From a virus: a DNA stretch of 24,345 bases. A model generated the notes under the pieces. That model was given only the letters and a program-made list of their open reading frames with translations. It did not search any database and had not been told where the DNA came from. The DNA lies in the IMG/VR virus record IMGVR_UViG_3300024180_000037, positions 1-24,345 of that record; one strand, given 5' to 3'. The position numbers and the translations under genes were made by a program. Below, piece after piece: positions 1-19,159 of the stretch; position 1 is the first letter of the stretch, and every line of letters starts with the position of its first letter.

Positions 1-510
1 AAGTTTATTGACGAGCGTATTGCGAGCCTCGCTGGTGCTATAGGCTGCATCTACGTAGGCGGTAACTCAGACGTGGAGCAGAAGGAGAAGTTTGACAGGG
101 TGGACGACTCAGTGTGTGCAGTAAGATCCGCACTTGAGGAGGGCATAGTTGCAGGTGGGGGCATAGCCCTGTACCAGATAGCCAGCAGGCTTGAGAACAA
201 GGACAGCGACTCGCTGGACTACTCGACCGCATACGCCATAGTACGTGACGCACTACGCACACCGATAAGGCAGATACTGATGAACGCAGGCATAAACCCA
301 GAGGACGTGCTTGGGGTTGTTGACGCAGACAACGCTCAGAACAAGAACGCAGGGTTTGACGTGAAGAACGAGAGATACGGTGACATGTTCAAGCTTGGTG
401 TGATTGACCCGCTAAAGGTCACAAGGAACGCACTGCTCAACGCAAGCAGCGTTGCGACAACCATACTATCAACGAACGCAATCGTAACACACAAGAGGGT
501 AACATCATGA
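1..510 (+). CDS. groEL: GroEL-type chaperonin (60 kDa subunit), C-terminal part, 5' end outside the window
   Basis: The frame is open from base 1 and gives 169 residues corresponding to about the last third of GroEL: the end of the apical domain, the second intermediate-domain segment and the C-terminal equatorial segment. Landmarks are RIASLAGAIG (6-15), the RVDD stretch (33-36) whose second Asp matches the ATP-hydrolysing Asp398 of E. coli GroEL, EEGIVAGGG (46-54) and the GVIDPLKVTR segment near the end. GroEL forms the barrel that folds proteins in the cytoplasm with its lid GroES, encoded just downstream. The protein ends at THKRVTS, a few residues after the last equatorial strand, so the Gly-Gly-Met tail of most bacterial GroELs is absent. 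It is phage-encoded judging by the surrounding genes. Family identity is very secure; the missing N-terminal two thirds cannot be judged. Confidence 0.95.
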   Translation, partial: KFIDERIASLAGAIGCIYVGGNSDVEQKEKFDRVDDSVCAVRSALEEGIVAGGGIALYQIASRLENKDSDSLDYSTAYAIVRDALRTPIRQILMNAGINPEDVLGVVDADNAQNKNAGFDVKNERYGDMFKLGVIDPLKVTRNALLNASSVATTILSTNAIVTHKRVTS

Positions 511-545
511 TACTAGACAGCATAATTGAATTGAAAATAATATGA
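507..545 (+). other. 12-codon mini-ORF bridging groEL and groES (possible translational coupler)
   Basis: An ATG overlaps the groEL stop (ATGA, 507-510) and opens a 12-codon frame, MILDSIIELKII, whose TGA overlaps the groES ATG in the same way (ATGA, 542-545). Ribosomes finishing groEL could reinitiate here and hand over to groES. It may equally be chance in an A/T-rich gap; no independent evidence of translation is visible. Confidence 0.25.
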
Positions 546-799
546 AGCCAATAGGGAAGTACATAGTGATCACAAAGGTAGAGGCCGAGGTCAAGACCGA
601 GTCAGGCATACTGCTGTCCGCAGAGGACGTGGGTGCTATGAGGTATCACCAGGGTAAGGTAATCAAGCCAGGGACTCTGGTTGAACACATCAAGGAGGGT
701 GACGACATATACTACGACAAGGCGGCTGGGCATTCGATGCTAATAAACGACAAGATATACACGGTTATAAGCGAGAGGGACGTGGTCGTTGTTATCTAG
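542..799 (+). CDS. groES: GroES co-chaperonin
   Basis: An 85-residue protein with the whole GroES fold: an N-terminal strand (GKYIVITKV), a mobile loop of roughly residues 14-32 holding the hydrophobic tripeptide ILL (23-25) that would dock on the GroEL apical domain, a GKV turn (38-40), KEGDDIYYDK (51-60) matching the GroES VGD-strand, and a closing strand ending SERDVVVVI. It is somewhat shorter than the roughly 97 residues of bacterial GroES. It caps the GroEL ring during ATP-driven folding. It lies 31 bases after groEL, so the order is groEL-groES rather than the usual bacterial groES-groEL. Its stop lies inside the CTAG at 796-799, which also holds the stop of the opposing gene. Identity is secure. 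Confidence 0.93.
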   Translation: MKPIGKYIVITKVEAEVKTESGILLSAEDVGAMRYHQGKVIKPGTLVEHIKEGDDIYYDKAAGHSMLINDKIYTVISERDVVVVI

Positions 800-1251
800 C
801 GATCCTTCCTTATCTCCTTGTTGATCTTCTTCATCTGGTTTCGGAACACCTTGTCCCTGAACTTAACATCGTGTTTAAACACAGGGTTGTTCACGTAGTT
901 CTCTGGGAACTCCTCACCGTTCAGCTTTCCATATATATTGCTAATCATCCTCTTACCCTTGTACGTAAGCTCGTATAGTGCAGCCTCCTTCCCCTTCTTG
1001 TTCCTCCACTTGTGTATCCACCCCTGCTTTATAAGCTTATAGAACCTGTTCTTGTCCCAGCTCATTATCTCCTGGTACTCCTCGAACTTTGTCTTGTTGA
1101 AAAGATGTTCGCTGTACAGGAACATCATCATCTCGATGTCAGCGGTTGTGACATCGTACTTCCTTTTTGCCCAGTACTTTACCACGCTCCAGTACTTTAG
1201 GTAGTCGTGTTCTGGCTGCTTGCGTGAGGTGTTTCTAACAGTTACGCCCAT
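796..1251 (-). CDS. Winged-helix (MarR-like) DNA-binding protein, putative phage regulator
   Basis: A 151-residue basic protein on the opposite strand to everything around it. Residues about 34-106 have the pattern of a winged helix: helices at TTADIEMMMFLYSE, KFEEYQEIMSWDKNRFYKLIKQGWI (two helices forming the helix-turn-helix) and then a beta wing ending in ALYELTYKGKRM. The C-terminus is Lys/Arg-rich. I recognise this as a type common in Bacteroidetes phages; its regulatory role is inferred from the fold. The ATG at 1249-1251 follows a T/A-rich leader and a -7 box at 1289-1296. The inverted repeat at 1271-1298 lies between this gene and the endolysin gene and is a natural operator candidate. 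It converges on groES with overlapping stop codons and no terminator, so the two transcripts may overlap. Confidence 0.82.
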   Translation of the reverse strand: MGVTVRNTSRKQPEHDYLKYWSVVKYWAKRKYDVTTADIEMMMFLYSEHLFNKTKFEEYQEIMSWDKNRFYKLIKQGWIHKWRNKKGKEAALYELTYKGKRMISNIYGKLNGEEFPENYVNNPVFKHDVKFRDKVFRNQMKKINKEIRKDR

Positions 1252-1733: not shown

Positions 1734-1844
1734 ATGATGTACGGCAAGAAGACAGTTACAAAGAAGAAGGGATACGGTGGCAAGGCTACCCCTAAGAAGA
1801 CAACTAAAAAAGTGGTTGTTAAAACCAAAAGAGGCAAGAGGTAA
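1734..1844 (+). CDS. Tiny Lys-rich protein, 36 residues
   Basis: Reads from a double ATG (1734 and 1737) to TAA at 1842-1844. Fifteen of the 36 residues are Lys or Arg and there are no acidic residues. The stop shares a base with the next start (TAATG), so translation is probably coupled. No domain is recognisable. The composition suggests nucleic-acid binding, for example on packaged DNA or RNA, but that is inference. It is first in a run of small proteins behind the endolysin. I accept it as a gene because of the tight overlapping spacing. Confidence 0.65.
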   Translation: MMYGKKTVTKKKGYGGKATPKKTTKKVVVKTKRGKR

Positions 1845-2014
1845 TGGCAAAGGGCAGGACTAAAAAAAAGTCTAACAAAATATGTGACGCAGGAATCTCT
1901 TGGGCTAAACGAACGTTTGACAAGTACCCATCGGCATACGCAAACATGGCTGCATCAAAGTACTGTAAAGATCCTAACTATGGAAAAGGAAAGAAAGGAA
2001 ATAAAGGCTCTTGA
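1844..2014 (+). CDS. Small basic protein with KYPSAYAN...ASKYC motif, 56 residues
   Basis: Begins at the ATG overlapping the preceding stop. A Lys-rich start is followed by ISWAKRTFDKYPSAYANMAA and SKYCKDP, then a GKGKKGNKGS tail. The KYPSAYAN...ASKYC pattern is one I recognise from small basic proteins of marine phages and large DNA viruses; its function is not known to me. It contains two cysteines (in ICD and KYC). The next gene begins inside its last 35 bases in another frame. Confidence 0.75.
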   Translation: MAKGRTKKKSNKICDAGISWAKRTFDKYPSAYANMAASKYCKDPNYGKGKKGNKGS

Positions 2015-2147
2015 GGAGCTTAAGGATAAGACAACTAACTTTGAGGAGCAGATGGAGATTGCAGACAGGATACATAACCTCAAGATGAAAATAAACGGAG
2101 TAAAACCAAGTCACAGTTACGTTGACTGTATTGGCTGCGGATCATAG
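1980..2147 (+). CDS. Small helical protein ending in a CxxC motif, 55 residues
   Basis: The ATG at 1980 starts MEKERKEIKALEELKDKTTN, giving a charged, probably coiled-coil helix over residues 1-37, a short hinge (GVKPSHS) and the terminus YVDCIGCGS. I chose this start because the frame upstream overlaps the preceding gene and has an unlikely composition there. The CIGC pair could bind metal or form a disulfide. The ending VDCxGCGS feels familiar from other Bacteroidetes phages, but I can name no function. The next gene starts two bases after its stop. Confidence 0.72.
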   Translation: MEKERKEIKALEELKDKTTNFEEQMEIADRIHNLKMKINGVKPSHSYVDCIGCGS

Positions 2148-2149
2148 GT

Positions 2150-2380
2150 ATGGGAGAGTTAAAGAAATGGAGGGACGAGAAGTGGGTACGTATAGGTACT
2201 GACGGAAAGATAAAGGGAGAGTGCGGTACTTCTAAGAATAAGAAGAACCCAGACAGGTGTCTACCCCTGGCAAAGGCTCGTTCACTATCAAAAAGAAAAC
2301 TAGCTGCTACCGCAAGGAAGAAGAAGAAGGAGGGGGCAAAGGGTAAGCAGTTTGTTAGGAACACTAAGGGAGTAAGGTAA
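2150..2380 (+). CDS. Small basic DUF5872-like protein, 76 residues
   Basis: Opens MGELKKWRDEKWVRIGTDGK, then GECGTSKNKKNPDRCLPLAKA, then a Lys/Arg-rich tail. The pattern W-x-x-EKWVxI...G.CG......RCLP..KA resembles the DUF5872-type proteins of phages and giant viruses; I recall the family by eye only. The two cysteines (CG and CLP) flank the conserved block. A role in the virion or on DNA is a guess from charge. It is part of the chain of small genes read from the promoter at 1273. Confidence 0.75.
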   Translation: MGELKKWRDEKWVRIGTDGKIKGECGTSKNKKNPDRCLPLAKARSLSKRKLAATARKKKKEGAKGKQFVRNTKGVR

Positions 2381-2398
2381 CTAAAAAAATAAAAGGTA

Positions 2399-2515
2399 AT
2401 GGCAAAGTTCAAGGTACATAACATGTACAGCAAGTCAGGTGTTAAAAAGGTAGCCAAGACTATGAAGCAACATCTGGCTCTAAAGAAAAAAGGTTACACC
2501 CACACTAAAAGGTAA
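2399..2515 (+). CDS. Tiny Lys-rich protein, 38 residues
   Basis: Runs from ATG 2399 to TAA 2513-2515; its stop overlaps the next start as TAATG. Twelve residues are Lys or Arg and there is no Asp or Glu. The middle (SKSGVKKVAKTMKQHLALKKKGYTH) can form one strongly basic helix. No domain is recognised. It is supported mainly by its exact overlap with the downstream gene and by the type of its neighbours. Confidence 0.65.
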   Translation: MAKFKVHNMYSKSGVKKVAKTMKQHLALKKKGYTHTKR

Positions 2516-2805
2516 TGGCTAATAAAAGTAAAATGAAGTGCAACTCCGTCAGGGCAAGTGACAGGGCAGGCAAGAAGAAAATGGTCAAGGCATGTGCTGG
2601 TGGCAAGGAGAAGCTTATACACTTCGGTGCTAAGGGGTACGGACACAACTACTCTGCTAAGGCAAGGAAGTCTTTCAAGGCTAGGCACAACTGTTCGACT
2701 GCCACATCGAAGATGACTGCAAGGTACTGGTCATGTAAAAAACTATGGGCAGGGAAGGGTGGAAGCACTGAGTCATCGCCTAAGAATAGGCAAGGAAAAT
2801 ATTAG
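2515..2805 (+). CDS. Small basic Cys-containing protein, 96 residues
   Basis: A very Lys-rich protein with four cysteines. The second half, KARKSFKARHNCSTATSKM followed by TARYWSCKKLWAG, matches a block (KSFxARHxC...T.RYWSCK.LW) that I recognise from small proteins of marine phages and large eukaryotic viruses; its function is unknown to me. Its first half repeats the basic, Cys-containing style (CNSVRASDRAGKKKMVKAC). The start is fixed by the TAATG overlap with the previous gene. It is the last gene before the promoter at 2806. Confidence 0.82.
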   Translation: MANKSKMKCNSVRASDRAGKKKMVKACAGGKEKLIHFGAKGYGHNYSAKARKSFKARHNCSTATSKMTARYWSCKKLWAGKGGSTESSPKNRQGKY

Positions 2806-2813
2806 TATATTTG
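2806..2813 (+). promoter_or_regulatory. Bacteroidetes-type -7 box before the 71-residue gene
   Basis: TATATTTG, directly after the previous stop codon and 16 bases before the ATG at 2830. No -33 TTTG is seen. It probably starts the unit that carries the small proteins, holins and fibres. Confidence 0.6.
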
Positions 2814-2829
2814 CATTAAATAAATTATT

Positions 2830-3045
2830 ATGAAACAAGGATACAATTCAAGACTCGATGAGTCACTTGGAGCAAGGAACGGAAAAAAGTCTCAGTCAAT
2901 GAAATCAAGACGAGACGAGAGCAAGGGAATGTCCAAGAAGGAGTCTGGGCATGCATACGGTGGCGACAAGTCTATGAGCTACAACCACCAGTGTATAAAG
3001 GACGGCAAGGTTAAGGATCACTTAGGTAAACTTATAAAGAAGTAA
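2830..3045 (+). CDS. Small charged protein with two RxDES motifs, 71 residues
   Basis: The sequence holds SRLDES at 7-12 (continuing LGARNGKKS) and SRRDES at 26-31 (continuing KGMSKKE), so the first half is a degenerate tandem repeat of about 19 residues. The second half is polar, with one His-Gln-Cys stretch and a Lys-rich end. Proteins with RLDESLGxRxG are familiar from marine phages, but I know no function. The stop overlaps the next ATG (TAATG at 3043-3047). Confidence 0.8.
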   Translation: MKQGYNSRLDESLGARNGKKSQSMKSRRDESKGMSKKESGHAYGGDKSMSYNHQCIKDGKVKDHLGKLIKK

Positions 3046-3188
3046 TGGGAAAATTATTAATAAGGATGGGCCTGTGGGTTCAAGAATTTTGGTGCAGGAC
3101 TCAGTGTAACTGGAACTGCCTAATGATTAACTTAATGTTTGACGTAACAAGATGTCCAAATGCCGACTGTAATTGTGAAAAAAAATAA
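3045..3188 (+). CDS. Tiny Cys/Trp-rich protein, 47 residues
   Basis: Starts inside the previous stop and ends with EKK-stop at 3188. It is unlike its Lys-rich neighbours: hydrophobic and aromatic (MGLWVQEFWC, NWNCLMINLM) with six cysteines, four of them in a close C-terminal set (TRCPNADCNCE). The pattern could bind zinc or an iron-sulfur cluster, or stabilise a small peripheral membrane protein; none of this is established. Its last 29 bases overlap the next gene. Confidence 0.6.
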   Translation: MGKLLIRMGLWVQEFWCRTQCNWNCLMINLMFDVTRCPNADCNCEKK

Positions 3189-3342
3189 GTCAAGGGGATT
3201 GGGAGACTCAATCCAGAAGATAACAAAGGCAACAGGCATACATACCGTTGTAGAAAAAGTAAGCAAGGCTATGGGAAAGGACTGTGGCTGTGCTTCAAGG
3301 AGAGACACGTTGAACCGTAAGTTTCCTTACAAGCAAGATTAA
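3160..3342 (+). CDS. Small conserved phage protein with CGC and FPYK motifs, 60 residues
   Basis: The order is a short basic start, GLGDSIQKITKATGIHTVVE (an amphipathic helix), then KDCGCASRRDTLNRKFPYK. The combination GLGD...TKATGI...DCGC..R.D.LN..FPYK is one I recognise from many Bacteroidetes phages, where the protein has no assigned function. The CGC could bind metal. It overlaps the upstream gene by 29 bases in another frame, which is consistent with translational coupling. Confidence 0.8.
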   Translation: MPTVIVKKNKSRGLGDSIQKITKATGIHTVVEKVSKAMGKDCGCASRRDTLNRKFPYKQD

Positions 3343-7509: not shown

Positions 7510-9696
7510 ATGGCAATTAGATTTTTAAACAGTCAGTCTATTGATGGAGAGCTTACGGTAACAGAAAACGTAGGTATAGGTATTGCTACTCCAGATTCAC
7601 CATTGCACATATGGTTTGATGATAACAATGCAGCAGAGAAGGTATTCCTTAATGTAGAAAGTGGTTACGGATCTGATAATCCTATCTTCCAAGTAGGAAC
7701 ACAACTAGGAGAAGGTTTTATGCGGCTAAAAGATAAATTTGATGTTTCTAAAATTGAATTATTATCAAGTGGAAATTCTTATTTTAATGGAGGCAACGTA
7801 GGTATAGGCACTACTACCCCTGGTCATCTTCTTGATGTACAGGGAACTACCGATCCTTCTATTAGAGTTAAGTCTACAGGTACAGGAAATTCAGATGATT
7901 CATCAATTAGAATGACAATTGGGGGAACTACTGCTAATAATAGGATTCGCTTTGGGGATGCTACAACAAGTACCGCAGGACAGCTTATGTATTCACATAG
8001 TTCTAATGCAATGCGTTTCTATACATCAGCTACAGAAAAAGTACGGATAGACTCCAGTGGCAACGTAGGTATAGGGAATGCAAGTCCTGAAAATATACTA
8101 CATGTTGAAAAAGCAAATCCAATTATTTTCGTTCAAGATACTGACACATCTCTTTCAACTACAGAGGCATATATTAAATTCAGTGGATCTCAAAGTTCAG
8201 CAGCAGGGGGTGGTTTTAGAACAGATGTAGAAAAGGCTATCGGATATAAAGAAGATAGTTTAGTTTTTGAAGATGGGGGTACTGAAAGAATGCGTATTGA
8301 TTCATCAGGTAACGTAGGTATAGGAACTACGAATCCAGTTTATCTCCTTGATGTACAAGCCACTACCGATCCTTCTATTAGAGTACGTTCTTCAGGTACA
8401 GGATCTTCAGATGATGCTTTAGTTAGAATACAAATTGGAGGTACAACTGCAAGTAGTTACATATTTTTTGGAGATAGTTCTGATGCTGATGCTGGATCTA
8501 TTAGATACCGTCATTCTGAAGATTCTCTACAGTTTCGTGTGAATGCAGCAGAAAGAATGCGTATCTCATCAACTGGTAACGTAGGTATAGGAACTACAAG
8601 TCCTGATGTATCTCTTGAAGTTGAAGGGCCGCATATTAGTGGTATTGGAATGTTTCTTTTAGATGGAGACACCCATGCATATATGACTATGGATTCTGCA
8701 ACAGGATCTAATTCAGGACTCTTTTTTAAAGAAAATTCAGCTAATAGGTGGCTTATTGATTATCAGTCATCAAGTAATTTTTTGAGGTTTTATGACTACT
8801 CAGGAGCTGCAGGGGTAAGGATGGTTATAGAAGACTCAACAGGTAACGTAGGAATAGGAACTACAACTCCATCACAACCACTCCATGTAACTGGAAATAT
8901 ATTATCTAATGGAGTACTTTATGGGGACACAGGAATTTACTCAGATGGTTATATTACTGCTGATGGGAATATCACAACTTACAATGATTTACAGGTTGAC
9001 GGTAGTGCAGAAATAGGAGGCAGTACAGGTCTAGGCACTTCAAGTCCTACTCAAAAACTTCATGTAAATGGAAACGCTAGGGTCACAGGTGCTTATTATG
9101 ATTCAAATAATCTACCAGGAACAAGTGGACAAGTATTGTCATCTACTGCAACAGGTACATCTTGGGTAAATGAGGGGAGTAGTGTTGGTGTGTCATCTAT
9201 AATAGCAGGAACAAATATTACCATTTCTCCTACAGGCGGGACTGGTGCGGTTACTATTAACGCATCAGGCGGAGGCGGAGGCGGTGGTAGTAGAACTGCC
9301 TCTTTTAATTCTGCGTTTTTTCAATCAGGTAATGGTAATTATTATCTTCCTATTTCTACTGAGAGTGAACAAACATCAAGGCAGCGAGGTAATACCATAG
9401 TCCCTCCATTTAATGCGTATTTAAAAAGTGTTACTATGACTCATACATCAGTTAATGCTCCTACATCTGGAACAAGGATTTTGACAATGCAGGATTCAAG
9501 TGGTACTACTATAGAAGCTATAACTGTAAATTACAATGACTATGTATCGGTGGGGGTTGGCAGATATACATGGACATTTACATTTACCTCATCAGCCCAA
9601 ATCTCTGCTGGAAGACCTTTTTGGATTTATGGTACTAACAACTTTAATGTAGGTTGGGGAAATGCAATATATACTATTCTTTTAGAAGAACAATAA
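7510..9696 (+). CDS. Repeat-built tail fibre protein with NVGIG repeats, 728 residues
   Basis: Begins MAIRFLNSQSIDGEL, the anchor shared with the fibre at 5357. The shaft is built of units that each close with GNVGIGTTxP: NVGIG at 20 and full motifs at 95, 184, 267, 356 and 445, with a worn copy (GLGTSSP) near 507. Spacing is 89, 83, 89 and 89 residues. Units at about 105-190 and 278-362 are especially alike (LLDVQxTTDPSIRV...). A Gly-rich linker (585-593) leads to a distinct C-terminal head of about 135 residues, which probably carries the binding site. Arg codons here are mainly AGA and CGT, whereas neighbours favour AGG, and the gene looks more A/T-rich, suggesting recent acquisition. No autoproteolytic chaperone domain is recognisable. 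Confidence 0.85.
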   Translation: MAIRFLNSQSIDGELTVTENVGIGIATPDSPLHIWFDDNNAAEKVFLNVESGYGSDNPIFQVGTQLGEGFMRLKDKFDVSKIELLSSGNSYFNGGNVGIGTTTPGHLLDVQGTTDPSIRVKSTGTGNSDDSSIRMTIGGTTANNRIRFGDATTSTAGQLMYSHSSNAMRFYTSATEKVRIDSSGNVGIGNASPENILHVEKANPIIFVQDTDTSLSTTEAYIKFSGSQSSAAGGGFRTDVEKAIGYKEDSLVFEDGGTERMRIDSSGNVGIGTTNPVYLLDVQATTDPSIRVRSSGTGSSDDALVRIQIGGTTASSYIFFGDSSDADAGSIRYRHSEDSLQFRVNAAERMRISSTGNVGIGTTSPDVSLEVEGPHISGIGMFLLDGDTHAYMTMDSATGSNSGLFFKENSANRWLIDYQSSSNFLRFYDYSGAAGVRMVIEDSTGNVGIGTTTPSQPLHVTGNILSNGVLYGDTGIYSDGYITADGNITTYNDLQVDGSAEIGGSTGLGTSSPTQKLHVNGNARVTGAYYDSNNLPGTSGQVLSSTATGTSWVNEGSSVGVSSIIAGTNITISPTGGTGAVTINASGGGGGGGSRTASFNSAFFQSGNGNYYLPISTESEQTSRQRGNTIVPPFNAYLKSVTMTHTSVNAPTSGTRILTMQDSSGTTIEAITVNYNDYVSVGVGRYTWTFTFTSSAQISAGRPFWIYGTNNFNVGWGNAIYTILLEEQ
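7792..8871 (+). repeat. About 89-codon tandem fibre repeats with near-identical GNVGIG DNA core
   Basis: Cores start at codons 95, 184, 267, 356 and 445 (bases 7792, 8059, 8308, 8575, 8842). The core GGyAACGTAGGwATAGG is nearly identical at each site while the DNA between is more diverged. The spacing is that of protein repeats, so this is a shaft repeat and not an RNA or CRISPR repeat. Confidence 0.8.
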
Positions 9697-10796: not shown

Positions 10797-11021
10797 TTGG
10801 ACATAAGAAAGATATCCATAGGAGCAGACTATAAGTCTGGGGCAATGCATTATATTGCAGGGCAGGATGTCCTAGGCGGCAGCTACTGTATCCATCTGAT
10901 TCAGTACGACCAAGAGGATTTTTCTTATAGGATATGGATTCGCAATAAGGACGAGGTCTTGCTATGGAAGGAGTTCAAGAAGACGATGCCTATATCCCTG
11001 GAGTACAACATAAACTTTTAA
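10797..11021 (+). CDS. Conserved small phage protein with TTG start, 74 residues
   Basis: The frame is closed by the stop of the previous gene at 10785-10787, and the only usual start before residue 18 is the TTG at 10797, giving MDIRKISIGADYKSGAMHYI and onwards. The sequence (ISIGADYKSGAMHYI.GQ.VLGG...I.LI.YD, VLLWKEF...MPIS.EYNINF) matches a protein I know as conserved just upstream of the packaging genes in Bacteroidetes phages, and homologs begin at this same residue. No function is known. The compact alpha/beta form without charged tails suggests a folded soluble protein. Its TAA overlaps the next ATG as TAATG. Confidence 0.82.
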   Translation: MDIRKISIGADYKSGAMHYIAGQDVLGGSYCIHLIQYDQEDFSYRIWIRNKDEVLLWKEFKKTMPISLEYNINF

Positions 11022-11587
11022 TGCAATCACCATACTCATTTATTGTAAAGCCTGTAAAGGGCAGGCGCTATGACAACATAAGGGTATATGGTGATAGGGA
11101 CTTAATCATCAGCGTATCTGAGGAGGATCACACGGTAGCTAATCGCTATGCAGAGGTAGTCAGCGTACCCATGGGGTACGAAGGAGAGGTATCTCCAGGG
11201 GACACCATATTGGTACACCACAATGTATTCAAGTACTATAACGATATATACGGCAGGCAGAAGAGTGGCAGGAGCTGGCTCAAGGATAACCTATTTATTG
11301 TAGACTTCGATCAGTTCTTTTTATACAAGAAGGGAGATGAGTGGAAGGCATTTGATAAGTACTGCTTTGTAAAACCAATCAAAAAGAAGGACTCTTACAT
11401 TATAGGCAGCGGGGTAAAAGAAGAGCCACTACATGGAGAGTTAGTGTACCTCAACGACCAGTTAGTAGAGCTTGGTTTAGAGAAGGGGGACAACATATGC
11501 TTCGAGCCTTTCAGTGAGTACATGTTTGATATAGAGGGCCAGAAGTTGTTTAGGATGTACACCAGCAATATAACCATCAAGCTATAG
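11021..11587 (+). CDS. Tandem GroES-like protein of the virion region, 188 residues
   Basis: Starts at the ATG overlapping the previous stop (MQSPYSFIVKP); a longer frame from 10964 would only overlap the upstream gene. The sequence falls into two halves with the same order of elements. Half one has FIVKP (7-11), AEVVSVP (44-50), VSPGDTILVHH (57-67) and DNLFIVDFDQFFLY (89-102). Half two has CFVKPI (115-120), HGELVYLN (138-145), LEKGDNICFEP (153-163) and GQKLFRMYTSNI (173-184). Each follows the GroES plan: first strand, GeV strand, GD strand, closing strand. I recognise homologs in Bacteroidetes phages as hypothetical proteins. The GroES-like reading is my inference. It may be a co-chaperonin variant or a beta-barrel virion part. 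Confidence 0.75.
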   Translation: MQSPYSFIVKPVKGRRYDNIRVYGDRDLIISVSEEDHTVANRYAEVVSVPMGYEGEVSPGDTILVHHNVFKYYNDIYGRQKSGRSWLKDNLFIVDFDQFFLYKKGDEWKAFDKYCFVKPIKKKDSYIIGSGVKEEPLHGELVYLNDQLVELGLEKGDNICFEPFSEYMFDIEGQKLFRMYTSNITIKL

Positions 11588-11588
11588 T

Positions 11589-11864
11589 ATGGATATAAGG
11601 GAACTAAAGATACAGATAATTCAAGCAGGAAAAAACTCTGTGCAGCACTTGATTCAGGTAGCCAACGAGAAGATAATAAAGATAGACCCAGAGGATGAGC
11701 TTGCGGCTGACAGACTAAAGAACGCTGCGGCTGCTAAGAAGCTTGCTATCTTTGATGCCTTCGATATACTTCAGCGTATACAGGAGGAGGAAGACAGGAT
11801 CAATGGCGTGGAAAGAGAAAAAAATAACTTACCAAAAGGATTTGCAGAATCAAAGTCAAAATAG
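11589..11864 (+). CDS. Small terminase subunit candidate, 91 residues
   Basis: A helical, charged protein (MDIRELKIQIIQAGKNSVQH, IKIDPEDELAADRLKNAAAA, LAIFDAFDILQRIQEEEDRI) lying directly upstream of, and overlapping by 62 bases, the large terminase gene. Such a position and size are typical of small terminase subunits, which bind DNA and regulate packaging. No helix-turn-helix is certain by eye, so the role is inferred from location. It begins two bases after the previous stop. I recognise homologs from flavobacterial phages at the same place. Confidence 0.65.
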   Translation: MDIRELKIQIIQAGKNSVQHLIQVANEKIIKIDPEDELAADRLKNAAAAKKLAIFDAFDILQRIQEEEDRINGVEREKNNLPKGFAESKSK

Positions 11865-14094
11865 CTTATACACAAAAGTAAACGACACTATACCCTCAAG
11901 CGTTAGGAAGCTAAAGAACAGACACAAGTCCTGGGTCTATGGCTACGATGAGAAGTATGATATCGTGGTTATATCTCGTGACGGGACTATCGGAGATATA
12001 TACAACATAAACAACCTAAAGGTTGCCCTACCACATACACCTAAAGACCCATACAAGAGGTCTACTGAAAAAGCGTCTCAGTACTGGGAAGCATCAGAGT
12101 ACTCCAAGGAGTTAAAGAGGATATCAACAATTTTTCAGTGGCACAACATGCCCCTTAGTTTTAAGGAGAGGTGGGTGGACTACATAGAGAAAGAGTTTAA
12201 TAGGAGGGACTTAGGTTACTGGTTCTATAACAATGGAGTTCCTACATATATTACAGGTTCTCATTATATGTATCTACAGTGGACTAAGATTGATGTTGGA
12301 CTACCAGACTTTAGGGAGGCCAATAGGGTGTTCTATATATACTGGGAGGCTTGCAAGGCAGACAAGAGAAGCTTTGGTATATGCTACCTAAAGATTAGGA
12401 GGTCAGGGTTTTCTTACATGGGTTCTGAGGAGTGTGTAAACATGGCTACGCTTGCTAGGGATGCTCGTGTAGGTATACTGTCAAAGACAGGGTCTGATGC
12501 AAAGAAGATGTTTACAGACAAGGTTGTTCCCATATCAAACAACTACCCATTCTTCTTTAAGCCTATACAGGACGGTATGGATAAGCCTAAGACAGAGCTT
12601 GCTTACAGAGTCCCTGCGTCTAAGATTACAAAAAAGAATATGTTCCTCATAGACGAAGAGGAAAAGCTTGAGGGGCTTGACACCACTATTGACTGGAAGA
12701 ACACCTCAGACAACAGCTATGATGGTGAGAAGCTAAAGCTACTTATACATGACGAGAGTGGAAAGTGGGACAAGCCAGACAATATACTAAACAACTGGCG
12801 TGTTACTAAAACATGTCTTAGGTTAGGTAGCAAGGTTGTGGGTAAATGTATGATGGGTTCTACGTCTAATGCCTTGGACAAGGGTGGTAGAAACTTTAAG
12901 CATCTATACTACGACTCTGACGTATCTAAGAGGAACTCAAACGGACAGACTAAGAGTGGACTGTATAACCTATTCATTCCTATGGAGTGGAACATGGAGG
13001 GGTTTATAGATGTGTATGGCATGCCTGTGTTAAAGACACCAAGCAAGCCAGTCATGGGTATTGACGAAGAGCTTATTAGTCAGGGTGCTATTGACTACTG
13101 GGACAACGAGGTTAGTTCTCTAACATCAGACCCCGATGCACTTAATGAGTTCTACAGGCAGTTTCCTCGTAGCGAGTCTCATGCTTTTAGGGATGAGAGT
13201 AAGCAGTCTATATTTAACCTAACCAAGATATACCAACAGATAGATTACAACGACTCCCTTATAAGGGAACACTTTGTAACTCAGGGTTCGTTTAGTTGGA
13301 AGGATGGCATCAAGGACAGCAAGGTAGTTTGGACTCCAAATAAAAGAGGCAGATTTTTTGTAACTTACATGCCTAAACCTGCGTTACAGAATAATGTAAT
13401 AAGGAGGAATGGTAGATTTTTTCCAGGCAACGAACACCTTGGAACTTTTGGATGCGATTCCTACGATATATCTGGAGTAGTTGTGGGCAAGGGGTCTAAC
13501 GGATCTTTGCATGGTTTGACTAAGTTTTCTATGGAGGAGATACCAAGTAATCATTTCTTCTTGGAGTACATAGCCAGGCCTCAGACTGCTGAGATATTCT
13601 TTGAGGAGGTATTGATGGCGTGTGTGTTCTTTGGTATGCCTATCCTATGTGAGAACAATAAACCTCGTTTACTGTATCACTTCAAGAACAGGGGGTATAG
13701 AGGGTTCTCTTTAAACCGACCAGACAAGGCTTACTCAAAGCTGTCTAAGACAGAGAAGGAGTTGGGTGGTATACCTAACACATCCCAGGATGTAAAGCAG
13801 TCACACGCATCTGCTATTGAGTCTTATATAGAAAAATATGTAGGACTAGATGAGACTGGTATATATAGAACTGAGGGAGACATGGGGGACGTATACTTTG
13901 AAAGAACCTTAGAGGACTGGGCAAAGTTTGATATCAACAACAGGACAAAGTTTGATGCGTCTATAAGTTCAGGTCTGGCTATAATGGCTAACCAAAAACA
14001 CCTATATACACCGTTAAAAGAAAATAAAAAAATAAGCATTAAATTTGCAACATATAACAACACTGATTCCCGCAGTAGAATAATAAATAGATGA
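11803..14094 (+). CDS. terL: Terminase large subunit (packaging ATPase/nuclease), 763 residues
   Basis: The DNA-packaging motor: an N-terminal ATPase and a C-terminal RNase-H-fold nuclease. Visible motifs, numbered from the ATG at 11803, are an unorthodox Walker A, LKIRRSGFSYMGSEE (about 196-210); Walker B KLLIHDESG with Asp317-Glu318; the coupling motif GSTSN (352-356); and the nuclease, Asp552 and Asp555 in TFGCDSYDIS, Glu617 in LCENNKP, and Asp663 as candidate third metal ligand. The P-loop has Arg-Arg-Ser-Gly instead of the GKT/S element; this arginine-type form is known in terminases of this phage group. I chose MAWKEKKITY as start because the open frame upstream lies inside the previous gene. 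The ATGA at 14091-14094 couples it to the portal. Confidence 0.93.
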   Translation: MAWKEKKITYQKDLQNQSQNSLYTKVNDTIPSSVRKLKNRHKSWVYGYDEKYDIVVISRDGTIGDIYNINNLKVALPHTPKDPYKRSTEKASQYWEASEYSKELKRISTIFQWHNMPLSFKERWVDYIEKEFNRRDLGYWFYNNGVPTYITGSHYMYLQWTKIDVGLPDFREANRVFYIYWEACKADKRSFGICYLKIRRSGFSYMGSEECVNMATLARDARVGILSKTGSDAKKMFTDKVVPISNNYPFFFKPIQDGMDKPKTELAYRVPASKITKKNMFLIDEEEKLEGLDTTIDWKNTSDNSYDGEKLKLLIHDESGKWDKPDNILNNWRVTKTCLRLGSKVVGKCMMGSTSNALDKGGRNFKHLYYDSDVSKRNSNGQTKSGLYNLFIPMEWNMEGFIDVYGMPVLKTPSKPVMGIDEELISQGAIDYWDNEVSSLTSDPDALNEFYRQFPRSESHAFRDESKQSIFNLTKIYQQIDYNDSLIREHFVTQGSFSWKDGIKDSKVVWTPNKRGRFFVTYMPKPALQNNVIRRNGRFFPGNEHLGTFGCDSYDISGVVVGKGSNGSLHGLTKFSMEEIPSNHFFLEYIARPQTAEIFFEEVLMACVFFGMPILCENNKPRLLYHFKNRGYRGFSLNRPDKAYSKLSKTEKELGGIPNTSQDVKQSHASAIESYIEKYVGLDETGIYRTEGDMGDVYFERTLEDWAKFDINNRTKFDASISSGLAIMANQKHLYTPLKENKKISIKFATYNNTDSRSRIINR

Positions 14095-17695: not shown

Positions 17696-19159
17696 ATGGC
17701 AGTAAATGCAACGCCAGGTTTCGACCTGCAGCCATCAGCACAGCAAGTGCCGTTGGAAAGTAACTATATCACAAACTTTGATTTCTTGAATCAGTATCTA
17801 CCCGATACTTACGAGAAAGAGTTTGAGAGATATGGAAATAGAAGTGTATCATCTTTCCTAAGACTAGTGGGAGCAGAGATGCCTTCTAACTCTGACCTTA
17901 TCAAGTGGGCAGAGCAGGGAAGACTACACGTAAAGTACCAAAACTGTACATCAGCTGGTGTATTGAATGCTTTAACTGGGGTATGGACTATTCCTAGCCC
18001 AGGGCCTAACTTTAACCCTGCCCTAGCTAACGGTAGTTCAGCGGCATTAAGGGTCGGACAGACGGTAATGATATCTGACAGGACACCTGGGTCTACCCTA
18101 ACTAACAAGGGTGTGATCACTGTAGCTCCTACATCAGGTGGAAACGGTGCAAACCAAGTAACAATAGCCTACTACGAGGCCGCTGGACAAGCAATGGTAG
18201 CGGGTGTAGCTTGTGATATATTTATCTACGGGTCTGAGTTCAACAAGGGAACTGAGGGCATGGTAGGATCTAACGAGTCTGACGACCTAATCTTTGACAA
18301 CAAGCCAATAATTATCAAGGACAAGTATGCTGTCTCTGGTTCTGACATGGCTCAGATTGGATGGATCGAGGTATCAGGCGAGGACGGAGTAAGCGGATAC
18401 CTTTGGTATCTAAAGTCTGAGCATGACACGAGACTACGTTTCGAGGACTACATGGAGACTGCAATGATTGAGGCCGTGCCTGCAGAGGCTGCTTCTGGGG
18501 CAGGAGACTTCTTCCAAGGTACTGGAGCTGGATTATCAGCAGCTAACCTTAACGGTTCAGAGGGTGTGTTCTACGTAGTGGGTCAGAGAGGTAACGTGTT
18601 TGGTGGAGGTAATCCAACAACGCTTGCTGAGTTTGATTCTATTATACAGAGGCTAGACAAGCAGGGAGCAATCGAGGAGAACGTTCTCTTCGTGAACAGA
18701 AACTTCTCGTTTGATATGGACGACATGTTAGCTGCTCAGAACTCTTACGGGGCTGGTGGTACTTCATATGGACTGTTTGACAATGATGAGGAGATGGCTT
18801 TAAATCTTGGGTTCTCAGGATTCAGGAGAGGCTATGACTTCTATAAGTCTGACTGGAAGTATCTTAACGACCCAACAATGAGAGGCGGTCTTGTAGGCGG
18901 TGCGATCAACGGAATGTTAGTTCCTGCTGGTTCGACTACAGTATACGACCAGGTACTAGGAAAGAATGCAAAGCGTCCTTTCTTACACGTTCGTTACAGA
19001 GCTTCTGAGACTGAAGACAGACGTTATAAAACTTGGATCACTGGTTCAGCTGGTGGAGCAAGGACATCTTCTTTGGATGCTATGGAGGTAAACTTCTTGA
19101 CAGAGAGAGCAGTTTGTGTATTAGGCGCAAACAACTTCTTCTTATTCCAAGATGCATAA
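17696..19159 (+). CDS. Major capsid protein, HK97-fold crAss-like type, 487 residues
   Basis: Forms the icosahedral shell. Blocks such as YEKEFERYGNRSVSSFLRLV (39-58), GAEMPSNSDLIKWAEQGRLH (59-78), SGSDMAQIGWIEVSGEDG, YLWYLKSEHDTRLRFEDYME and, near the end, RYKTWITGSAGGARTSSLD match major capsid proteins of crAss-like and related marine Bacteroidetes podoviruses. Residues about 81-185 look like an added beta-rich lobe (NALTGVWTIPSPGPNFNP ... ALRVGQTVMISDRTPG...) of the sort that sits on the HK97 core in this group. It is read from the promoter at 16554 and followed directly by an intrinsic terminator, consistent with very high and separate expression. Secure. Confidence 0.94.
   Translation: MAVNATPGFDLQPSAQQVPLESNYITNFDFLNQYLPDTYEKEFERYGNRSVSSFLRLVGAEMPSNSDLIKWAEQGRLHVKYQNCTSAGVLNALTGVWTIPSPGPNFNPALANGSSAALRVGQTVMISDRTPGSTLTNKGVITVAPTSGGNGANQVTIAYYEAAGQAMVAGVACDIFIYGSEFNKGTEGMVGSNESDDLIFDNKPIIIKDKYAVSGSDMAQIGWIEVSGEDGVSGYLWYLKSEHDTRLRFEDYMETAMIEAVPAEAASGAGDFFQGTGAGLSAANLNGSEGVFYVVGQRGNVFGGGNPTTLAEFDSIIQRLDKQGAIEENVLFVNRNFSFDMDDMLAAQNSYGAGGTSYGLFDNDEEMALNLGFSGFRRGYDFYKSDWKYLNDPTMRGGLVGGAINGMLVPAGSTTVYDQVLGKNAKRPFLHVRYRASETEDRRYKTWITGSAGGARTSSLDAMEVNFLTERAVCVLGANNFFLFQDA

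Follow-up and report, generated by a model that had tools for sequence, protein, structure and literature searches.

The window considered here, meaning the whole 24,345-base virus record, begins inside a groEL gene, which is open at the window edge, and continues beyond a groES gene into the amidase, terminase, portal, and virion genes of a tailed phage. The initial annotation had described both chaperonin subunits in a phage structural and lysis setting, with groES following groEL in reverse of the usual order, a GroEL that stops at THKRVTS without the Gly-Gly-Met tail, and two ATGA overlaps that link the genes via a 12-codon ORF. The Pfam and PHROG matches, the coordinates of the pair (1-510, then 542-799), the translation, and the letters themselves agree with this description. 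The features that carry the argument are as follows.

1..510, + strand: groEL, last 169 residues (Pfam Cpn60, E 8e-34)
507..545, + strand: 12-codon ORF ATGATACTAGACAGCATAATTGAATTGAAAATAATATGA, peptide MILDSIIELKII (read from the sequence)
542..799, + strand: groES, 85 aa (Pfam Cpn10, E 1.4e-12, above the gathering score)
796..1251, - strand: convergent gene, 151 aa, weakly regulator-like (PHROG 17028, E 4e-8; PHROG 12817, transcriptional regulator, E 5e-4)
11021..11587, + strand: second Cpn10-like protein, 188 aa, upstream of the terminase (Pfam Cpn10, PHROG 13932)
11743..14094, + strand: large terminase (PHROG 6681, E 7e-171)
17696..19159, + strand: virion structural protein, 487 aa, 52.6 kDa (PHROG 13704, virion structural protein, E 1e-98)

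The TTG start of the terminase ORF is probably placed too early. The product of 17696..19159 is a candidate major capsid protein and may be a substrate of the chaperonin. The convergent gene overlaps the end of groES by 4 bases in antisense orientation and is the next gene after groES in 104 of 107 relatives. Elsewhere in the window, a run of small Lys/Arg-rich ORFs (35-96 aa) with no significant match in a Pfam search occupies 1738-3342 (+), between the amidase and virion genes, and 7510-9696 (+) encodes a 728-aa protein with repeated GNVGIGTxxP motifs that has no match in Pfam and is perhaps a tail fiber. The predicted host is a (marine) Bacteroidota, because, apart from an unassigned podovirus, everything that the terminase matches is a phage of Flavobacterium, Cellulophaga, Tenacibaculum, or Maribacter, and because the motif TAnnTTTG, the Bacteroidota promoter element, lies just upstream of groEL in the sequence of a near-identical contig.

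The first gene is a group I chaperonin (Cpn60/GroEL) both by profile and by full-length fold. The part within the window scores 117.6 bits against a Pfam Cpn60 cut-off of 34.3. Its 5' part comes, strictly, from near-identical contigs rather than from the window's own record: IMGVR_UViG_3300024185_000324 (L002), which matches the window at 99.94% identity across 6.5 kb and reaches 1.35 kb further upstream, holds an intact groEL of 536 aa at 253-1863, and a further contig, sharing 309 bases with the window at 99.4% identity, has the same 5' part. In these contigs the gene is thus neither truncated nor frameshifted. The completed protein passes the NCBIfam GroEL subfamily models, with the GroEL equivalog TIGR02348 giving 472 bits, below its cut-off of 582, and 518 residues of its AlphaFold2 model (pLDDT 80.9) align with solved GroEL chains at Z 38. 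With E. coli GroEL from MG1655 as the reference for numbering and alignment, the ATP-site residues T30-P33, D52, G86-T91, D398, and D495 are identical in the protein completed from L002 and in all 105 full-length relatives; the ATPase residues D52, D87, and D398 and the GDGTTT motif are likewise present in the window's gene and in every one of these relatives.

The product of 542..799 is a GroES/Cpn10, again by profile (47.9 bits against a Pfam cut-off of 21.1) and by fold, as structural comparison of its model (pLDDT 93.5) gives Z 11.6 with T. thermophilus Cpn10 (1.9 A, 83 residues) and Z 8.7 with T4 gp31. The mobile loop, SG(I/L)LLS, is conserved in the phage GroES proteins and kept in the groES adjacent to this groEL. 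Because of the ATP-site residues, the GroEL and GroES models, and this conserved loop, ATP-driven, GroES-capped folding is very likely. The initial annotation had asked whether the ATPase and the apical GroES-binding residues encoded upstream are intact. The ATPase set is; the apical L234, V263, and V264 are substituted, becoming E, A, and A in 104-105 of the 105 relatives. This altered apical face, together with the shortened GroES roof described below, suggests at the level of sequence that the two proteins form a matched, dedicated pair. The distances of GroEL and GroES across 97 phages correlate (r 0.63), a value that shared ancestry alone also explains.

Searches of IMG/VR returned 162 stretches with a GroEL relative and 292 with a GroES relative. 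Every fetched locus that has both genes shows the order groEL-groES on one strand, and the Bacteroidota host loci show groES-groEL in 30 of 30. A relative 84% identical (G065) has a contig that stops short of the groEL position. By maximum likelihood, the phages with the order groEL-groES cluster in one clade (support 100/98). Among its members are a Flavobacterium Elemovirus, a podovirus deposited as MW202828 (61 kb), and two contigs from a Bacteroidetes MAG, with Elemovirus and one MAG row on long branches. The Bacteroidota phages immuto and Calle_1, in which the co-chaperonin gene comes first, and DAC16, with a Cpn10-like ORF before groEL, fall outside this clade. Because phages of the one order form a single clade and those of the other order lie outside, the reversed order belongs to an old phage clade as a whole. 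A recent host origin of groEL is ruled out on two grounds: in the tree the gene sits among phage GroELs rather than within a host species, and a genome scan yielded one match, a 58%-identical copy, likewise ordered groEL-groES, on a contig of a Bacteroidetes MAG that is probably phage. With an intact 5' part and this grouping, the chaperonin claim survives two of the three tests by which the initial annotation had proposed that it be refuted. The chaperonin genes, their order, and the missing tail are beyond chance, because all are family-wide. Work by Marine et al. in 2017 (ISME J) is said to have found that gene order follows GroEL phylogeny in virioplankton. The phage groEL-groES pair as such is already of a known kind, GroEL having been described in marine Bacteroidetes phages by Nishimura et al. 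2017 (PMC5332604).

The loss of the C-terminal tail, like the reversed order, is general in the phage clade and not peculiar to the window contig. The window's GroEL ends in NAIVTHKRVTS, about 21 residues before the end of E. coli GroEL. None of the 105 relatives has a GGM-like tail, and nearly all stop 4-15 residues past the conserved NAIxT motif. The GroELs of Cellulophaga phages Calle_1 and phi14:2 are tailless too. Host GroELs have mostly Gly-Met-rich ends, with other tails of similar length in some Bacteroidota. The loss is real but mild, and the missing tail alone says little, because E. coli GroEL lacking its last 27 residues supports growth and phage morphogenesis at a high expression level (PMC11978752).

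A different kind of change, absent from the initial annotation, is found at the interface between rings. The single-ring E. coli GroEL known as SR1 carries R452E, E461A, S463A, and V464A, and a resurrected ancestor (ACI) with E460R, S463A, and V464E forms single rings (PMC12696368). The SR1 and ACI changes fall at positions that are also altered in the phage clade. In the window-type GroEL the differences are E460I, E461N, S463E, V464D, K105E, and A109P; R452 is kept, and the trio 452/461/464 reads R-N-D. The canonical trio R452/E461/[VI]464 occurs in none of the 105 phage relatives and, as R-E-V or R-E-I, in 28 of 30 Bacteroidota hosts, and 92 of the 105 phages have a polar or charged residue at position 464. 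Vibrio phage 2.275, which has the canonical gene order, keeps the trio. At eight inter-ring positions, those beyond the SR1 four being generally assigned to the interface, the phage sequences vary more than those of hosts by 1.84 bits (permutation p 1.5e-4), an excess that for the protein as a whole is 0.44 bits, and the same entropy comparison finds no such excess at ATP-site or apical positions. Although read from a handful of positions, this pattern suggests that the phage clade no longer stacks its rings in the GroEL way, which would most simply mean a single ring. A single-ring chaperonin is thus predicted, because the contact trio is absent in 105 of 105 relatives.

Aligned with host proteins, E. 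coli GroES, and gp31, the phage GroES proteins also depart from the canonical form in the roof of the dome. The roof segment, which in E. coli is AVGNGRILENGEVKPLD and 17 residues long, comprises 8 residues in all 109 phage GroES proteins and 11-17 residues in 27 Bacteroidota host sequences, so that most of the hairpin that closes the dome is missing throughout the phage set. T4 gp31 also has the Cpn10 fold without the GroES roof loops, and the chamber that it forms with GroEL is 8% larger (PMC6318259). By very rough arithmetic, the lost tail corresponds to about 15,000 and the lost roof to about 8,000 cubic angstroms per chamber.

A further co-chaperonin-like gene is linked by position to the terminase. 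The C-terminal part of the 11021-11587 product matches Pfam Cpn10 with E 4.8e-4, 0.6 bit under the cut-off, and the protein matches PHROG 13932 (co-chaperonin GroES) with E 2e-20; the N-terminal half was considered as a further Cpn10 domain, for which hhalign gave no support. In 75 of 78 relatives this gene precedes the terminase at a distance of no more than 0.9 kb. The same gene, annotated GroES or cpn10, stands just before the terminase in Cellulophaga phages phi38:1 and phi13:2 and in Elemovirus, and phi13:2 has it with no GroEL match in the search. A role in the head or in packaging is a fair guess.

Comparison with known systems places the window pair among several partly similar solutions. 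Cellulophaga phi38:1 and the "group 2" environmental viral genomes (PMC5332604) likewise combine GroEL with related structural genes in marine Bacteroidota phages, but the GroEL of the phi38:1-type phage Calle_1 falls outside the window's clade, and there the Cpn10 gene precedes groEL. Podoviridae sp. ctfjg026 (MW202828) and the Flavobacterium Elemovirus belong to the same clade and share with the window the reversed order and the absence of a GGM tail, with GroELs 53% and 37% identical to the window's, respectively. MW202828 also has a convergent "repressor" gene after groES. Both lack the 12-codon ORF, and in both groES overlaps groEL. The GroES-GroEL proteins of Bacteroidota hosts are of the same families and have the same ATP site, yet they differ in gene order, in their longer and mostly Gly-Met-rich tail, in the inter-ring trio that they keep, and in the longer roof.

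Canonical bacterial GroEL combines a GGM tail with R452/E461/V464, whereas the window protein lacks the former and has R-N-D at the latter. T4 gp31, similar to the window GroES in its roof, cooperates with the host's GroEL and its mobile loop is longer, whereas the window phage brings its own GroEL and a GroES of only 85 aa. Among giant-phage chaperonins, those of OBP and AR9 function as single rings, or are predicted to, a likeness that for the window is predicted from sequence, and that of phage EL, the one included in the identity search and 27% identical to the window GroEL, forms a double ring with single-ring intermediates. None of these three needs a co-chaperonin, whereas the window GroEL comes with a GroES.

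The reading that we favor, at somewhat better than even confidence, is that this marine Bacteroidota tailed phage encodes a complete ATP-driven group I chaperonin, likely a single ring with its own GroES, and that the 12-codon ORF is a spacer. The phage clade would have fixed the groEL-groES order and lost the Gly-Gly-Met tail long ago, with the pair inherited within the clade thereafter. A single heptameric GroEL ring would be capped by the phage's own GroES, and with the floor tails and the roof of the lid both gone the chamber may be slightly larger and more open, as has been proposed for GroEL with T4 gp31 (PMC6318259). Phage proteins would be folded in it during infection, including the candidate capsid protein of 53 kDa and other virion proteins of 58-94 kDa, and either its own A-rich leader or ordinary coupling would account for the translation of groES. 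That the phage chaperonin serves virion folding is a reasonable supposition.

The main rival to a single ring is a different contact between two rings, that is, an ordinary double-ring GroEL/GroES with a changed stacking interface, in which the missing tail, the short roof, and the diverged interface reflect drift or retuning and bring no new architecture. The full conservation of the GroEL fold and ATPase, the retained R452, and the precedent of the phage EL chaperonin, which stacks its rings via contacts of its own unlike those of GroEL (PMC7185714), all speak for such an arrangement. Yet the interface positions vary freely (entropy percentile 0.80-0.97) and position 464 carries charged residues, which is unlike a new conserved contact, and the loss of the roof is uniform rather than scattered as drift might leave it; we therefore regard this alternative as unlikely, if the most serious of those considered. 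A more distant alternative concerns purpose rather than architecture. Phages carry auxiliary metabolic and stress genes, and the chaperonin could be a general host-protection or stress gene instead of a virion-folding factor, in keeping with a neighbor at 796..1251 that may be a regulator. The altered and fixed apical face with its matched short GroES suggests dedicated substrates instead; with the second Cpn10-like protein linked to the terminase as well, the stress-gene explanation is improbable.

The 12-codon ORF raises a separate question about how the pair is expressed. Its ATGA at 507-510 is common to the groEL stop and that at 542-545 to the groES start, an arrangement from which the initial annotation had proposed that reinitiation through the mini-ORF sets the subunit ratio: ribosomes leaving groEL would reinitiate on the ORF and then on groES. 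Besides these overlaps at both ends, a direct 4-base overlap of groEL and groES in 23 of 113 junctions and longer bridging small ORFs with similar overlaps in some relatives (L119 and L031, for example) are in favor of a coupling device. The distance between the genes, however, ranges from -17 to 1,242 bases over the 113 junctions, with gaps of 60-350 in 50, and neither the ORF nor the spacer is conserved; the nearest relatives, L010 and L008 (GroEL 79% and 77% identical), have gaps of 196 and 154 bases with unrelated content. A search of IMG/VR with a degenerate DNA pattern for the peptide found no match beyond the near-identical contig, which rules out a conserved peptide. Such a bridge, noticed after the fact, has a chance of about 1-4% per junction, because ATGA or GTGA occurs at 12 of 79 non-overlapping groEL stops and 8-28% of random spacers stay open to the groES TGA. 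The groES leader is A-rich, of the same kind as those of uncoupled genes in the window. On these grounds the proposed control of the subunit ratio is not supported; a real coupling device is very improbable, and the ORF is probably an incidental spacer. In relatives (L153, L148, L004, L078, L086, L033, L125, and others) the gap holds several unrelated small ORFs, for example MPIYNQIFEHYR..., MKKRKLNSKNPK..., and one with a hydrophobic N-terminus plus NIKQYE, of which six of seven have no match in PHROG. The 12-codon ORF was also considered as a remnant of these genes, to which it has no recognizable similarity.

A broader and more tentative reading extends the preferred single-ring chaperonin to the whole clade of marine Bacteroidota phages. 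As judged from sequence, these phages would possess a dedicated single-ring GroEL and a roofless GroES, with no floor tails and a chamber open at both ends, for long virion proteins, possibly with a second, terminase-linked co-chaperonin; we hold this to be possible, though short of probable. If true, phages would thereby provide their first known natural chaperonin that is both single-ring and GroES-dependent, as far as the literature could be checked. In the literature examined, which covers prior work on viral chaperonins only in part, lost inter-ring contacts, a roofless GroES, and a missing tail are not reported together, and our search found nothing on gene order in Flavobacterium phages or on single-ring chaperonins of Bacteroidetes phages. 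The need for two rings, for C-terminal tails, and for a closed dome has been debated largely via E. coli mutants and mitochondrial Hsp60. The conserved gene pair of this phage clade, found in well over a hundred contigs, seems to have altered in all three respects together, and this naturally evolved system, with its likely virion substrates, would make the question of ring, tail, and dome testable.
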